Assembly: GCF_014652675.1 (NCBI RefSeq)
Contig: NZ_BMZG01000002.1
Location: 62,001-126,000, forward strand
Direction of reading: 5' to 3'
DNA length: 64,000 nucleotides
DNA from: Formosimonas limnophila
GTDB lineage: Bacteria; Pseudomonadota; Gammaproteobacteria; Burkholderiales; Burkholderiaceae
Positions 13,365 to 18,726 of this stretch are shown here, piece after piece; within the stretch, counting starts at the first letter, position 1, and every line of letters starts with the position of its first letter. Below the pieces are notes generated by a model that was not told the origin of the DNA, did no database searches, and saw only the letters and a program-made list of their open reading frames with translations. A program made the position numbers and the translations under genes.

Positions 13365-15005
13365 TTACATATTGGTGTAGTTCGGGCCACCTGAGCCTTC
13401 GGGGGTGACCCAAACGATGTTTTGTGTGGGGTCTTTGATGTCACAGGTTTTGCAGTGAACACAGTTTTGTGCGTTGATTTGCAGTTTTTTCTGTCCTGCT
13501 GCTTCGATAAACTCATAGACGCCTGCTGGGCAGTAGCGTGCTTCTGGACCTGCGTATTTGGCCAGATTCACATTGACGGGCGCAGAGGCATCTTTGAGCG
13601 TTAAATGCGCGGGTTGGTTTTCTTCGTGATTCGTATTTGAGATAAAAACAGAACTCAAACGATCAAAGGTCAATACACCATCAGGTTTGGGGTACTGAAT
13701 CGGCGAGCATTCAGCCGCAGGGCGAAGGCACTCGTGATCGGCTTGCTTGCGGTGAATCGTCCACGGGAATTTACCGCCCATGACTTTTTGCTCAATGCCT
13801 GTCATTAGTGTCGCGATGTTGCGGCCCTTTTTGAACCATTGCTTGAAGTTGCGGGCTTTCCAAAGTTCTGCTTTGAGCCACGAATCATGGAATTCCACTT
13901 CGTACTCAGGGACTTCGTCGCGTTCGCGGCCTTGCTCGATGGCGTGGGCGATGGTTTTCGCGGCCAACATGCCTGTTTTAATCGCAGCATGAGAGCCTTT
14001 GATGCGAGAAGCATTTAATGTACCAGCCTCGCAGCCCACTAACACACCACCTTTAAAGAACAACTGCGGCAACGACAAGATGCCGCCTGCTGTAATCGCA
14101 CGTGCACCATAAGAGATGCGTTTACCAGCTTTGAGGTATTTCGCGATTTCGGGATGGGTTTTATAGCGTTGGAATTCTTCAAATGGTGATAAGTACGGAT
14201 TTTGGTAATCAAGTCCGACGACCAAGCCAATCGCAATTTGATTATTATCCATGTGGTAGAGGAATGAACCACCGTAGGTGTCGTTGTCCAATGGCCAGCC
14301 AGCGGTGTGCAGCACCAAGCCTTCTTGGTGCTGCTCGGCGGGTACTTGCCAAACTTCTTTGATGCCAATGCCGTAAGCCTGTGGGTCACGGCCTTTATTC
14401 AAGTCGTATTTCGCCATCAAACGTTTGCCCAAGTGCCCACGAGCACCTTCAGCAAAAATCGTGTATTTCGCGTGCAGCTCCATGCCAGGTTGATAATGAT
14501 CGGTGGGTTCGCCATCTTTGCCAATACCCACATCGCCTGTCACTACACCTTTGACTGCGCCGTTCTCGTCATACAAAATCTCTGCTGCGGCAAAACCAGG
14601 ATAAACCTCCACACCCAACGCGTCAGCCTGTTCACCCATCCAGCGTGTGACATTTGCCAAACTGACGATGTAATTACCATGGTTTTGAAAACTCGCGGGC
14701 AGTAGCCAATTCGGGGTGGTTTTTGCACCTGTTTCGCTCAGGAACAAAAATTTATCTTCTGTGACAGCTGTATTGAGTGGCGCACCAAGTTCTTTCCAGT
14801 TCGGGAACAGCTCATTCATCGCAATCGGATCCATGACTGCGCCTGATAAAATGTGTGCCCCAATCTCTGAGCCTTTGTCAATCAGGCAAACGTTCAAGTT
14901 TTTGTTGATTTGCTTGAGATGAATCGCGCTCGCCAACCCCGCGGGGCCACCGCCGACAACGAGAACATCATACTCCATCACGTCGCGTTCGATGGTGGTG
15001 TCCAT
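13365..15005 (-). CDS. Electron-transfer flavoprotein:ubiquinone oxidoreductase
   Basis: Passes electrons from the ETF pool (fatty- and amino-acid dehydrogenases) to ubiquinone at the inner membrane. The FAD motif VVGGGPAGLASAIHL is at residues 16-30. The hydrophobic quinone-side segments are in the middle, and the C-terminal ferredoxin-like 4Fe-4S domain has cysteines in RYCPAGVYEF and NCVHCKTCDIKDPTQN. At 546 residues it is full length. The start is followed upstream by a region of which degraded copies exist at 17446-17498 and 17711-17882. No ETF alpha/beta genes are adjacent. Confidence 0.95.
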   Translation of the reverse strand: MDTTIERDVMEYDVLVVGGGPAGLASAIHLKQINKNLNVCLIDKGSEIGAHILSGAVMDPIAMNELFPNWKELGAPLNTAVTEDKFLFLSETGAKTTPNWLLPASFQNHGNYIVSLANVTRWMGEQADALGVEVYPGFAAAEILYDENGAVKGVVTGDVGIGKDGEPTDHYQPGMELHAKYTIFAEGARGHLGKRLMAKYDLNKGRDPQAYGIGIKEVWQVPAEQHQEGLVLHTAGWPLDNDTYGGSFLYHMDNNQIAIGLVVGLDYQNPYLSPFEEFQRYKTHPEIAKYLKAGKRISYGARAITAGGILSLPQLFFKGGVLVGCEAGTLNASRIKGSHAAIKTGMLAAKTIAHAIEQGRERDEVPEYEVEFHDSWLKAELWKARNFKQWFKKGRNIATLMTGIEQKVMGGKFPWTIHRKQADHECLRPAAECSPIQYPKPDGVLTFDRLSSVFISNTNHEENQPAHLTLKDASAPVNVNLAKYAGPEARYCPAGVYEFIEAAGQKKLQINAQNCVHCKTCDIKDPTQNIVWVTPEGSGGPNYTNM

Positions 15006-15333
15006 AGCTTGTACTCCTCATGTGAATTTTAGATGGCGCATGGTAACACAGTGTAAAGGCAATGCACAATTAAAGGAACGATCGTGCTTTTTAATTGTGT
15101 GTTTATTGTTCATGTCATTCAGCCAAGGATGAAAATATACTGCGGTGGTAGAAAAGTGATTATCAGTAACGGCTGCCTGCAAATGACGAGAATGACAAGC
15201 GGAATGTCTACGTCGAGGCTGTCTGTGCGTAGATTAAATCATATTTGTCATCATTACTGGACACGTAAATGAACGCTTCTTTGCCGACTAATTTGGGTTT
15301 GTGTTTGTTATCTGAATTATCAACTGGATATTC
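15006..15333. other. ETF-QO upstream region (parent copy of a local duplication)
   Basis: 328 bases upstream of the ETF-QO gene. The first ~75 bases (ATTTTAGATGGCGCATGG...) recur in diverged form at 17446-17498 and 17797-17882. The remainder up to the channel gene has no convincing gene; a 62-codon frame at 15084-15272 has no ribosome site and looks random. The ETF-QO promoter should lie here but is not obvious. Confidence 0.5.
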
Positions 15334-15681
15334 CTATGCATCCAGTGTTTTTGTTAACGCCTTAACTGCTATTGCGGAAATCAGTGCAGTAAATAGCATT
15401 CCACATAAGCCAATAATCACAGAAAGACATCGACTAATTGGATAATGCGGTGCGAAATCGCCATAACCGACTGTTAATCCCGTTATCAAAGAAAAGTAAA
15501 TAGACTCATGCATGAGCCATCCCTCTAAAAAGCCAATCAACAAACCCAGCCCTACGATCAAGACAACCAAGACCGAAAGAATTGGCCATACTATTTTGAT
15601 TCCCGATAAAAGGTGTATGGCAAAGATTCTTCTTTGTAATTTTTTATTTACTTTCAAACTATAAACCTCAAGAGTTTTCAA
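15334..15681 (-). CDS. Two-transmembrane potassium channel protein
   Basis: A short K+ channel subunit of 115 residues with two membrane helices (about 28-52 and 85-110). Between them is a pore loop carrying the selectivity filter TVGYGDF at residues 70-76. There is no cytoplasmic RCK/TrkA-N domain, so it resembles a minimal Ion_trans_2 pore that would assemble as a tetramer. It lies 46 bases downstream of the ZIP-like gene on the same strand and is probably cotranscribed. What gates it cannot be read from the sequence. The gene is part of the accessory pocket between copies of the ETF-QO 5' region. Confidence 0.82.
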   Translation of the reverse strand: MKTLEVYSLKVNKKLQRRIFAIHLLSGIKIVWPILSVLVVLIVGLGLLIGFLEGWLMHESIYFSLITGLTVGYGDFAPHYPISRCLSVIIGLCGMLFTALISAIAVKALTKTLDA

Positions 15682-15727
15682 CTAAAATCAAAATGGTGAC
15701 TTGATTTACCTATTGCAAACACCGTCT

Positions 15728-16474
15728 TTAGGCGCTTGTCAAAGCAAATGCCGCCGAGCACACAAACCCTAAAACGGTCATGACACCAGTCCACTTACCG
15801 CCGTGCTCAAATGACTCTGGCATCATGCTGTTGGCCAACATCATTAAAATAGCACCTCCAGCAAATGCCTGAATAAATGAAATCCACTCCACCGCAACAT
15901 GGCTAAAAACATGATAGCCCAATAGGGTTGCAAGCGCACAAATTAATGCAATACTCAGCCAAAGCGTCAAAATCTTGCGAGTAGACCATCCACTGGCTTT
16001 CATCCCTGATGTTCCAGCGAGGGCCTCTGGTAAGTTAGATACAAAAACAGCTAAGAGTATTGACGTACTAACCGAACCATTTTGAAACATACCCAAGCCC
16101 AAAACAATCGATTCTGGGATGCCATCTAAAATAATCGCTAACACCATTGGAACCAAAAGCTTAACGGAATTATTCAGCGACGCAGAATCTTGATTAGGGC
16201 TGCCAGCGCGGACCCGATGACCAAAGAATTCAATTAAACTATCCGACATTAAAAATACTGCAGCCCCCGCAAATAGCCCAGAAATTGGGAAGTAACTCCC
16301 CCCACCCAATTCAACCGCCTCAAGAACCAAATCATAGGCTACGGCGGAAATGAGCGCTCCAGCACCAAAGCCCATAATCATACCCAGCAGCTTTCGATTG
16401 ATGTTCCAATAAACACCAATCAGTCCGCCCAAAACAAGAGATGAAACTGACAACAATCCGACCAAAAAAATCAT
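15728..16474 (-). CDS. ZIP-family-like metal transporter
   Basis: A polytopic membrane protein of 248 residues with about eight hydrophobic segments, laid out like the ZIP family of divalent-metal importers. The two signature helices are recognisable as DGIPES at 117-122 and NLPEA at 147-151. The histidines usual in these motifs (HNxPEG and HExPH) are missing, so metal specificity or even transport is uncertain. A short, mildly charged loop at 85-104 replaces the usual histidine-rich loop. It heads a probable two-gene unit with the K+ channel. Confidence 0.75.
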   Translation of the reverse strand: MIFLVGLLSVSSLVLGGLIGVYWNINRKLLGMIMGFGAGALISAVAYDLVLEAVELGGGSYFPISGLFAGAAVFLMSDSLIEFFGHRVRAGSPNQDSASLNNSVKLLVPMVLAIILDGIPESIVLGLGMFQNGSVSTSILLAVFVSNLPEALAGTSGMKASGWSTRKILTLWLSIALICALATLLGYHVFSHVAVEWISFIQAFAGGAILMMLANSMMPESFEHGGKWTGVMTVLGFVCSAAFALTSA

Positions 16475-16703
16475 TATATTAACTCTCCCATGAGTTGGTT
16501 ATCAGGATAAAAACTAATCCAAATATGACTAATATCTTAAACTGTGGCGATTAGACTACGATAAATTTTCCCCACTAAAGCGGGGAGGTGGTCTCAATTT
16601 TTCAGGCTTATTGTGCTCATATTTCTTGTGGCCTGAATAATATAATTTTTGCCATAATCTTACCATTCTTTGCCAGTTCACTGAAAAACTGAATACACCA
16701 TTT

Positions 16704-17045
16704 TTAACCAAAGATGGACATCCTCTCAAAAAAGACGCGTGAAACTGCTCCAGATAATAAAACAATACTAATCAAAAGCACCCCCAAATTAATCATGATG
16801 TCAACTTTAACAAAAGTCTTTAAATGAGCATTGTTTTTCGCGTCTTTATTTAGCGAATTATAGAAGCACTTTAATTGAAAGGCACGATACTGAAACAATA
16901 AGCTGATAGCGATAATCGCTAAACCAACGATGATGTTCATCATGAAATAGAATGGGTTTAAAAAAGCTCCGCTGATTACTAATATCCCCAGCATTGTCCA
17001 TACGATTCTACACAGTAGAGATATTTTATTTTGCCAATAGTTCAT
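16704..17045 (-). CDS. Small hypothetical membrane protein
   Basis: I do not recognise this 113-residue protein. It has hydrophobic helices at about 8-28, 32-52 and 84-104, separated by a polar stretch (YNSLNKDAKNNAHLKTFVK). A likely start is the ATG at 17045. It lies in the accessory pocket upstream of the ZIP-like gene on the same strand, 229 bases away. That gap includes a short hairpin near 16570 (CCCC...GGGG) and nothing else identifiable. Confidence 0.5.
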   Translation of the reverse strand: MNYWQNKISLLCRIVWTMLGILVISGAFLNPFYFMMNIIVGLAIIAISLLFQYRAFQLKCFYNSLNKDAKNNAHLKTFVKVDIMINLGVLLISIVLLSGAVSRVFFERMSIFG

Positions 17046-17084
17046 TGATTAAATTCCTTGTTTGAAAAGAGTGACACGCTGCAA

Positions 17085-17267
17085 CTACCTAAATGCACCC
17101 GTTTCAATGCAACGTCCGATAGGGTTCATGCACACGGCGCACTGCCCATTCAGTATCAAGCTGCCTTTTTCTGCCTTGCCTGACGCATTAAACATCGTCG
17201 TGACATCTTTGCAGTTGCTACAAAAGACGTTTTCTAAAATGTTCATTTTATCGTTAATGGGAAGCAC
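17085..17267 (-). CDS. Small zinc-ribbon protein, start uncertain
   Basis: A 60-residue frame from a GTG at 17267 (or 52 residues from the ATG at 17246) with two cysteine knuckles, FCSNC and GQCAVC, spaced as in a zinc ribbon and followed by IGRCIETG. The reading frame stays open and protein-like for another 20 codons upstream, giving ITTLKLPKFTPQAAQLWSVL, up to a stop at 17331-17333. No ATG, GTG or TTG with a ribosome site precedes that stretch. Small proteins beginning MKLPKFTP with such a ribbon seem familiar to me, so the original start may have been lost. It is either translated from a weak internal start or is a decaying gene. Confidence 0.5.
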   Translation of the reverse strand: MLPINDKMNILENVFCSNCKDVTTMFNASGKAEKGSLILNGQCAVCMNPIGRCIETGAFR

Positions 17268-17445
17268 GCTCCATAACTGAGCTGCTTGTGGTGTGAATTT
17301 AGGTAGTTTGAGGGTCGTAATATTAAAGAGTCATTAAAAAACACGGGTTAATGCTGGCTTAAGCTTTACCCATAGCGATGTCTGATAAATTTAGTCATTA
17401 TGGTGCTGTTTAATTCAAATTATATCCGCATAAAGCTCTGGCAAC

Positions 17446-17498
17446 TATTTTAGATGGCGATGGTAACATAGTGTCAGGGGGTACAATTAAAAAAGTGA
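17446..17498. repeat. Diverged copy of the ETF-QO upstream sequence (copy 2)
   Basis: ATTTTAGATGGCGATGGTAA and the following ~35 bases match the region just upstream of the ETF-QO start (from about 15025) with scattered substitutions, in the same orientation. It marks the right edge of the channel/ZIP pocket. Bases 17334-17445 beside it hold no gene. Confidence 0.7.
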
Positions 17499-17534
17499 CC
17501 GTCCGCTTAAAGCGTTATTGCCTAAAAAGTGTCG

Positions 17535-17697
17535 TTGCGGGCTTGACCCGCAATCTCATCACAAACAGACCAGCAAGCGTGGACAAGTCGCTAAGCCCGC
17601 AATGAAGAAGTCATGAGCGCTGGTGATTCAAGCATCTGTTAGTCTATGGTAGCCTCGGCATTTTCTCAATTTCGGAGATTGCGGGTCAAGCCCGCAA
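17535..17697. repeat. Inverted pair of 23-bp palindromic repeats
   Basis: A 23-base sequence at 17535-17557 recurs as its exact reverse complement at 17675-17697. Each copy is itself a hairpin (TTGCGGG, 5-base loop, CCCGCAA). A partial third unit (AGCCCGCAATGA) lies near 17596. This is the form of a REP/BIME-like or MITE-like repeat; closely similar GCGGG-CAAG palindromes are common as dispersed repeats in proteobacterial genomes. No coding capacity is evident between the arms. Confidence 0.75.
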
Positions 17698-17710
17698 TGA
17701 CGGTGGAGCA

Positions 17711-17791
17711 ATCAGGCAAACATTCAAATCGTTTTTGATCCGCTTGAGATGAATCGCGCTCTATCACGTCGCGTTCAATGGTGATGTACAT
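17711..17791 (-). pseudogene. Fragment of the ETF-QO gene (5' end)
   Basis: Bases 17711-17791 align with the first part of the ETF-QO gene (about 14882-15005 in the parent). The match is ATCAGGCAAAC ... TTGAGATGAATCGCGCTC, then an internal deletion of about 45 bases that removes the glycine-rich FAD motif, then TCACGTCGCGTTC and the start codon. The original ATG and downstream residues (TIERDV) are still readable, but the frame is useless. It is a duplication remnant, not a gene. Confidence 0.75.
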
Positions 17792-17882
17792 AACTTGTGC
17801 CTCCTCATGTGAGTTATTTTAGATGGGGCACGGTAACGCATTGTGGAGGCTGGGGATAATTAAAAGAGCGAGTGTGCTTTTT
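17792..17882. repeat. Diverged copy of the ETF-QO upstream sequence (copy 3)
   Basis: This continues the fragment upstream of its start codon: CTCCTCATGTGA, then TTTTAGATGGGGCACGGTAA, AATTAAAAGAGCGAG and GTGCTTTTTT match the parent 15010-15092 with substitutions. The Shine-Dalgarno-bearing CTCCTC (GAGGAG on the minus strand) is conserved. It ends 14 bases before the attC site. Confidence 0.7.
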
Positions 17883-17896
17883 TGCGTTGTACAGAT

Positions 17897-17959
17897 GCTT
17901 AACGTTCGACGTAAGGGGCGGCCCGCTTGCGGGACGTCCCCTTGACGGAGGGGTTAGGC
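17897..17959 (-). other. attC recombination site of an integron-type cassette
   Basis: Read on the minus strand downstream of the MltR-like gene, the site starts with GCCTAAC (consensus RYYYAAC, 17959-17953) and ends with GTTAAGC (consensus GTTRRRY, 17903-17897). It is 63 bases long. Between the cores lie imperfectly complementary inner arms (TCAAGGGG and CCCCTTA) and a central palindrome (CCCGC/GCGGG). Core consensus, length, symmetry and position right after a gene all match attC sites. It may also act as a terminator. Confidence 0.85.
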
Positions 17960-18494
17960 GTCGGGTTCATATGCGCGTCTTGTTGGGCCAGGCTCGCAAA
18001 GTGCGCCGCTCTTGACGGACAAGGCGAACCCGCCAGAGCAAGTCGGTGAGCAAGATAGCGACTGCGGCATTGAACCGCCCCCTTGGCGTGGATTCCGCTT
18101 CATGCTCGGCGGGACCGAGCCATGGGAGCTGAGCAGTAAGCTTGGCGATTGTGGCTGACGAGAAGGACATGGGCTCCCACCCGTGACCAAACTCATTCCG
18201 TATTTTGCGAATGAGCGTAATCTCCTTGAACTCGTTCTGTTGAAGGAGGCCAAGGGCAAGGGCAGCGGAGGCTCTGGCTGAAAAGGTTCCCAGCGGAGCA
18301 TTGAAGCCGGCAAGGAGATCACGAGAGGCTGTGCTTTCAATCAGGAAGGCACGGAGCATCTCTTCCAACCGCTCATCAAGCATTGAAGCGGCGACCAAAG
18401 CCGCCCCGCGATCACTCTCCTTGTTGAAGGAGGATAGAAACGCGGCCAACTGCGCGACCTCAGGTTCAGTTTCGCGTGTGCTCATGACGCCTAA
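17903..18494 (-). mobile_element. Single integron gene cassette without an integrase
   Basis: The element runs, on the minus strand, from TTAGGC immediately upstream of the MltR-like start codon (the preceding G of the core GTTAGGC is at 18495) to the G of GTTAAGC at 17903. This is the linear form of a cassette: one gene, a very short 5' lead (the start codon lies 3 bases past the core) and an attC. It is visibly richer in G+C than its surroundings. No integrase gene or attI lies in the window, so it would count as a lone attC cassette. It inserted beside a duplicated ETF-QO fragment. Confidence 0.8.
17967..18485 (-). CDS. MltR-family protein in an integron cassette
   Basis: 172 residues with the MltR (mannitol operon repressor) family pattern: NKESDRGAALVAASMLDERLEEMLRAFL near residues 20-47, FSARASAALALGLL near 68-81, and the conserved LIRKIRNEFGHGW near 91-103. 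MltR proteins regulate or modulate without a classical DNA-binding domain. Family members outside enterobacteria are mostly uncharacterised, and no mannitol genes are nearby. The start codon lies 3 bases inside the cassette boundary with no room for a normal ribosome site, as is common for cassette genes that depend on outside promoters. No promoter on the minus strand was identified. Confidence 0.8.
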   Translation of the reverse strand: MSTRETEPEVAQLAAFLSSFNKESDRGAALVAASMLDERLEEMLRAFLIESTASRDLLAGFNAPLGTFSARASAALALGLLQQNEFKEITLIRKIRNEFGHGWEPMSFSSATIAKLTAQLPWLGPAEHEAESTPRGRFNAAVAILLTDLLWRVRLVRQERRTLRAWPNKTRI

Positions 18495-18501
18495 CGTAAG
18501 T

Positions 18502-18546
18502 TATACGGCAAAACACACTGATATTCTGTTTTCATTTTGCCGCATA
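18502..18546. repeat. Imperfect inverted repeat beside the cassette boundary
   Basis: TATACGGCAAAA (18502-18513) and TTTTGCCGCATA (18535-18546) are complementary at 11 of 12 positions around a 21-base loop. The repeat lies 7 bases outside the cassette's GTTAGGC core. An attC-like RYYYAAC core is not found at its far end, so it does not qualify as an attC. It could be a hairpin at the insertion target or a decayed site. Confidence 0.4.
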
Positions 18547-18726
18547 TCCTGTGTGAAAATTAAAATTTATCATATAAAACAAAAGATTAGATAAAAACAA
18601 GCTGGTTATTTATCCTAAAAATCAGCAGATCGCATCAAAGCTACTTCTATGCCTCTATCAATCTGTACATATTACCTTGATCTTCTGGTCGGATTTTAAC
18701 TCGATTTTTCGTTTAGCGCCCTTTAT

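Follow-up and report, generated by a model that had tools for sequence, protein, structure and literature searches.

A single integron gene cassette at a putative solo copy of attI in Formosimonas limnophila and the apparent dispersal of attI copies in related genomes

The window, i.e., the whole 64-kb stretch of Formosimonas limnophila DNA that was analysed, carries a single integron gene cassette that very probably sits at a solo attI of the type used by the clade's integrons, this copy being one of a set of dispersed platforms that would have been served in trans by IntI. Judged from sequence comparison, the anatomy of this arrangement is proposed with high confidence and the in-trans mechanism with moderate confidence.

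The cassette and its attC site

Read along the minus strand, the window presents CTTACG/TTAGGCGTC-ATG (the slash marks the recombination point here and below), a 172-aa open reading frame and then GCCTAAC...GTTAAGC. The gene cassette (592 bp, positions 17903..18494, minus strand) extends from TTAGGC through the G of GTTAAGC. The heptamer GTTAGGC, described in the first-pass annotation as lying 3 bases before the start codon, was indeed found 3 bases 5′ of the cargo ATG (18495-18489, minus strand), and the 63-bp attC recombination site that had been placed after the stop codon (17897..17959, minus strand, GCCTAAC...GTTAAGC) was recognized with 56.7 bits (E = 4.6e-12) by the covariance model R2. 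This model was built from 10 attC sites at other loci, taken from class 1 integron cassettes, from arrays in which homologues of the cargo occur and from genomes G004 and G061, with the window site left out. The match was the sole one in the 64 kb at E ≤ 10, and the count of attC in the whole F. limnophila genome at E ≤ 0.05 was likewise one. A class 1-like integron with two attC sites, observed in a 7.3-Mb relative in the family (G163:C19:11606-12550, L155), provided the control for R2. A hand-made attC finder produced many false positives at long spacings, and the main claims therefore rest on the R2 results only. An Rfam search of the window returned nothing at gathering thresholds.

The GTTAGGC at the 5′ end of the cassette is perfectly complementary to R″ (GCCTAAC), as expected of the ends of a single cassette circle, and the circular form would carry R″ = GCCTAAC and R′ = GTTAGGC; the final six bases of the attC (TTAAGC) are part of the host sequence or of the original attI. 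The attC has R″ and R′ cores and a foldable interior, the single open reading frame lies in the attC orientation, and G/TTRRRY stands at both boundaries. The GC content of the cassette is 59.3% vs 47.9% for the window, in line with the earlier remark that the gene is more GC-rich than its surroundings. The evidence thus supports a genuine integron gene cassette in a genome without an integrase. A search of the 2.22-Mb genome (100% complete) with TIGR02249 gave only Xer-type matches far below the cut-off, and a query with sister-species IntI gave partial matches only, so the lack of an integrase, noted earlier for this stretch, extends to the whole genome. Since no intI is found in this genome, present activity would be impossible without an outside supply. 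The window feature accordingly lacks the intI gene of a complete integron and, with one attC in 64 kb, has fewer than the two or more clustered attC sites by which a CALIN is defined under the default of IntegronFinder 2.

The cargo protein

The cargo gene (17967..18485, minus strand) encodes a 172-aa protein of the MtlR/HEPN family with the motif RNEFGH, as assigned from Pfam, an AlphaFold2 model and the R..H motif. The Pfam MtlR profile (PF05068) scored E = 9.7e-5 and 22.8 bits, below its gathering cut-off of 25.2. At the same time, the AlphaFold2 model (pLDDT 91) was matched by Foldseek to the MtlR structures 6kcr, 3brj and 3c8g, followed by the Gifsy-1 prophage protein HepS and HEPN proteins, so that the MltR-family label given at first sight is right, the fold agreeing with a weak HMM match. 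The cargo combines the helical fold and the Rx4-6H motif of HEPN proteins; R96, N97 and H101 of RNEFGH are invariant, and the R..H motif is kept in all 26 homologues. A role as an RNase or in RNA binding may be supposed from these features. MtlR has been placed in the HEPN superfamily, in which the motif is kept by only part of the family, and integron-borne HEPN domains have been described (PMC3710099). The cargo shares with these proteins the fold and the RNxxxH motif, and differs from the MtlR family in having no mannitol operon context and in keeping the RNase motif, unlike many MtlR proteins. The closest homologue (73% identity) lies between two attC sites in an array (L027), and other homologues adjoin attC sites (L028, L029); the cargo is therefore a recurrent cassette, and the earlier impression that such a cargo is unusual at this site is not supported.

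The element 5′ of the cassette

Directly 5′ of the cassette lies an element that was absent from the first-pass annotation, and this element of ~65 bp is predicted to be the attI of the clade's integrons. As defined by alignment with 15 further copies and by the element model R1, the solo attI (18489..18553, minus strand) consists of a conserved core that reaches up to the recombination point, AGGATATGCGGCAAAATG...TATAACTTACG/TTAGGC, with the terminal TTAGGC of this span being owned by the cassette; the window copy scored 90.5 bits against R1 (E = 1.5e-18). A search of relatives showed further occurrences of 18491-18566 both elsewhere in this genome and in congeners, GTTAGGC marking the edge of the repeat. 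In the 16-copy alignment, the core AGGATATGCGGCGAAATGAAAACAGAATATCAGTGTTTTTTGACGCATAACCTACG/TTAGG is followed by diverging sequences and different gene starts, i.e., the cassette junction stands at a fixed G/TT with variable sequence beyond it, as in an attI. The canonical position of attI is beside a divergent intI. In G004, a complete genome, a copy of the element was found ~80 bp from an intact divergent integron integrase gene, whose product scores 451 bits against a cut-off of 265, and in G061, which belongs to another genus, a copy lies ~60 bp from an intact divergent intI, the two IntI proteins being 73% identical. It is the presence of copies next to intact divergent intI in two genera that argues for the identification of the upstream element as attI, the window copy being the solo homologue of these two.

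Further upstream, a part that is common to the window (18554..18619, minus strand) and to another attI copy of this genome, G000:C1:60123, may contain a promoter region. Together, the window attI and this upstream part share about 135 bp with that copy (-130..+3, 82% identity), so in this lineage the unit that moved had at least this length; other pairs of attI copies have only about 60 bp in common. A fragment of the unit (L126, G005:C58, 2372-2448), comprising the upstream part, the ribosome-binding region and ATGAAAACA, is 95% identical to the window and is joined to unrelated sequence in a genome (G005) with no intact attI. A conserved promoter at every site was considered and rejected, the best hexamers being mostly no better than shuffles; one candidate was TTGTTT-17-TATAAT in G004 (p = 0.06). 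A Pc upstream of attI is thus only suggested, since the promoter scan gave no statistical support at most sites.

A mini-ORF, MKTEYQCVLPYNLR followed by its stop, is located inside attI (18491..18535, minus strand), and its frame is kept in 14 copies. It has 14 codons and ends with CGT-TAG, the TAG being supplied by the TTRRRY of the cassette (TTAGGC in the window), and the cassette ATG follows 5 nt past this stop. For cassettes that supply no direct stop, the stop of the leader frame overlaps the start codon of the cassette gene in three of five cases (G004int, G000b and G001_C111). The same arrangement, with a stop coming from the cassette, has been published for ORF-11 of attI1 (PMC8876359). 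The incoming cassette would thereby provide the stop of the leader ORF and couple its translation to that of the cassette gene, and the leader ORF may thus act on translation.

Dispersal of attI copies

Convincing copies of the element were found with the model R1 in G000 (4), G004 (8), G001 (7) and G003 (3), so that four of the six congeneric species have between 3 and 8 scattered copies each; further weak matches in those genomes were the same sites on the opposite strand, and G002 and G005 yielded no R1 copies. Outside the genus, a search of 349 genomes of the family detected only two copies, both in G061. The copies are nearly always without intI nearby, end at G/TT and are mostly followed by one to three cassettes. 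Searches for intI remnants at the solo sites found none, and intI was likewise undetected in G001 and G003, both draft genomes. Twelve attC sites were counted in the six congeneric genomes (R2, E ≤ 0.05), and ten of them lie downstream of an R1 site. As for the other two, the one in G002:C4 stands behind a degenerate element that also weakly matches a second attI type, and G001:C169:41130 lies where the orthologous locus of G004 has an attI. This distribution indicates that cassettes and attI copies go together. About half of the attI copies have no strong attC match or carry a frameshifted leader ORF, which indicates that several sites are decaying. A short palindromic repeat of intergenic regions (ATTGCGGGTCAAGCCCGCAAT), found in many copies in the genus, occurs in the window as two mutually inverted copies, at 17531-17557 and 17673-17702, and several of its copies lie less than 600 bp from solo attI sites.

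The second attI type was found beside the intI of G042, whose IntI is 60% identical to the others; it differs in sequence from the first type and contains two TATGTGTCA direct repeats. Its locations are L154 5850-5925, L156 4265-4339, L157 4827 and L158 4470. Three copies within that genus have no adjoining intI (G061:C8:72264, G061:C3:97469 and G042:C2:56826); each ends at GTTGG or GTTAG before a gene, and in two of the three an attC follows. The second type is thus dispersed too, and dispersal is no peculiarity of one sequence.

These data also bear on the reading that a small mobile or hairpin (MITE-like) element, the ~65-bp core with its leader ORF, became a cassette hotspot and was acquired secondarily by integrons as their attI, an origin that overlaps in part with the explanation preferred here and that we regard as unlikely. 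The core alone (-61..0) is common to sites that differ in sequence further upstream, and its arms AGGATATGCGGC...GCATAACCT are imperfect inverted repeats of each other, both of which would suit such an element; against it stand the dispersal of a second, different attI type, the failure to identify target duplications or mobility genes, and a search for attI carriers that gave no match in viral contigs or phages and one marginal plasmid match. An attI hairpin as a conserved structure was rejected, the inverted repeat showing no compensatory changes. It is very improbable that a travelling IntI inserted the cassette at an ordinary attG (non-classical secondary) site next to an unrelated intergenic repeat, an idea that accords with the established attG insertion of lone cassettes (Loot et al. 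2024, cited in PMC11023631), with the lack of intI in this genome and with G001:C169:41130, where a GTTAGGC junction is present without a recognizable attI, but that is countered by a repeat that ends at G/TT in nearly all copies, adjoins intI in two genera and precedes ten of the twelve attC sites of the genus.

Different cassettes at orthologous sites

Several orthologous solo sites are occupied by different cassettes. The cleanest pair is formed by G061:C4 and G042:C24, whose upstream sequences are 88.6% identical over 5.4 kb up to the G/TT core, where the identity stops, and resume at +1399/+549 with 89.6% identity over 4.0 kb downstream; the cassette DNA between these flanks differs (1.4 vs 0.55 kb), and each of the two genomes carries intI on a contig other than that of this site. 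Similarly, the 4.5 kb leading to the core agree at 88% identity between G001:C55 and G004:1995882, whose sequences differ past it, while at G001:C169 and G004:182211 the 4.5 kb upstream agree and the downstream sequences agree again, with 0.8 or 2.8 kb of differing DNA in between. The same pattern was found for G001:C136 and G004:138101, and G004:212623 and G001:C169:41130 are orthologous sites with different cassettes. Moreover, a single upstream flank leads to different genes at G000:C2:216928, G001:C68 and G004:1284137, these being HNH and PIN genes (Pfam) and a GST-like gene (by sequence). This pattern is the one that would be expected from insertion and excision by IntI in trans, and IntI probably catalysed the cassette exchanges in this manner. 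Likely HEPN, TIR, HNH or PIN proteins were observed in several solo-site cassettes (L101 8207 onward, L099, L130, L102), as expected for defence-type cargo.

The window locus in relatives

In G001, G004 and G005, ETF-QO and scoA are adjacent, and the spacer between them measures 160-220 bp and lacks attI; in G002 other genes stand between them, and the G003 contig is too short for the comparison. In the window, attI and the cassette are flanked on one side by the scoA end of the spacer, with only about 200 bp separating attI from scoA, and on the other by a second, degraded ETF-QO 5′ end. The host sequence 3′ of the cassette (17709..17896) includes this second 5′ end together with the spacer upstream of it (17709-17882; compare 14879-15092), and past this copy 2.6 kb (15093-17708) carry ion-channel and ZIP-type transporter genes, as judged by sequence. 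The two duplicates of the ETF-QO 5′ end (14879-15092 and 17709-17882) bracket this 2.6-kb insert, which is absent here in relatives. Within it, 17086-17316 is repeated twice in contig C1 of the same genome (88-89% identity), with 85% identity in G005.

The first-pass annotation had proposed that the cassette was inserted at a secondary site or was the last survivor of an array; the cassette in fact abuts a copy of the clade's attI, and relatives have neither an array nor attI at this locus, and neither proposal is supported. A related reading, in which a complete integron existed here and lost its intI by deletion, leaving a decayed integron or single-cassette CALIN, is very improbable: loss of intI does occur, as seen at the aspS locus, where G004 has intI-attI-cassette vs attI and cassettes without intI in G003 (C254), but no intI remnants are found close to this site or to the other solo sites, the ~200 bp between attI and scoA are all that is available, relatives have no integron at the ETF-QO/scoA locus, and species pairs share 4 to 5 kb of conserved flanks without intI.

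Discussion

The presence of one cassette at a solo attI of the clade's type can be accounted for as follows. The clade would possess many dispersed attI platforms without intI, and the attC of a cassette circle would recombine with G/TT at any of them by means of an IntI encoded elsewhere in the same cell, cassettes being exchanged at the platforms over time. In this genome IntI, which was presumably once present in the lineage, would now be lost, and because of this loss the cassette would now be fixed. The comparisons of nucleotide sequence on which this account is built cover the attC, the predicted identity of attI, its dispersal and the different cassettes at orthologous sites. As a broader proposal, we are inclined to think that distributed integrons exist, in which attI multiplies and spreads as modules of ~65 to 135 bp, so that one IntI would serve many single-cassette expression sites, and that this arose independently for two attI types.

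Integrons are described as one platform, where all cassettes depend on a single attI and good expression is limited to the first ones. If attI is dispersed, this limit of a shared platform would be lifted, and every cassette would be the first cassette at its own locus. Dispersed attI would also offer an explanation for integrase-less cassette clusters found repeatedly at corresponding loci in different species. To our knowledge, attI is not modelled by standard software outside the known classes. For this reason, and because single attC sites are dropped by default in IntegronFinder 2 (PMC9024848), such sites would be missed by standard software.

CALINs and attG insertions are already known, and dispersed solo attI is apparently a new integron variant, no report of it having been found in the literature searched, where subscription papers were mostly beyond reach. 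Like sedentary chromosomal integrons, the system described here has attI beside divergent intI (G004, G061 and G042), attC cassettes and insertion at G/TT; it differs in that most attI copies are far from intI and that, in place of one array, each holds one to three cassettes. CALINs likewise consist of cassettes without nearby intI that are mobilisable in trans (PMC12444791), but have at least two attC and no defining attI, whereas here attI heads each site, often with a single cassette, and default IntegronFinder 2 settings would for that reason not report these sites (PMC9024848). Insertion at attG or other secondary sites also yields a lone cassette outside an integron; the target here is a specific conserved 65-bp attI and not scattered GNT motifs. 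In a study of Xanthomonas, integrase-less cassette clusters were found at conserved loci, unlike broadly scattered attG insertions (PMC12444791). The attI1 of class 1 integrons with its ORF-11 has in common with the present attI a short ORF over the crossover, with a stop from the cassette core (PMC8876359), and is distinguished by the other sequence and the dispersed copies found here. Finally, the delta-attI cassettes of mobile integrons (PMC12901181) also place attI sequence outside its canonical position, but there attI is the recombination site of unusual cassettes within arrays, whereas here it stands alone at chromosomal loci.
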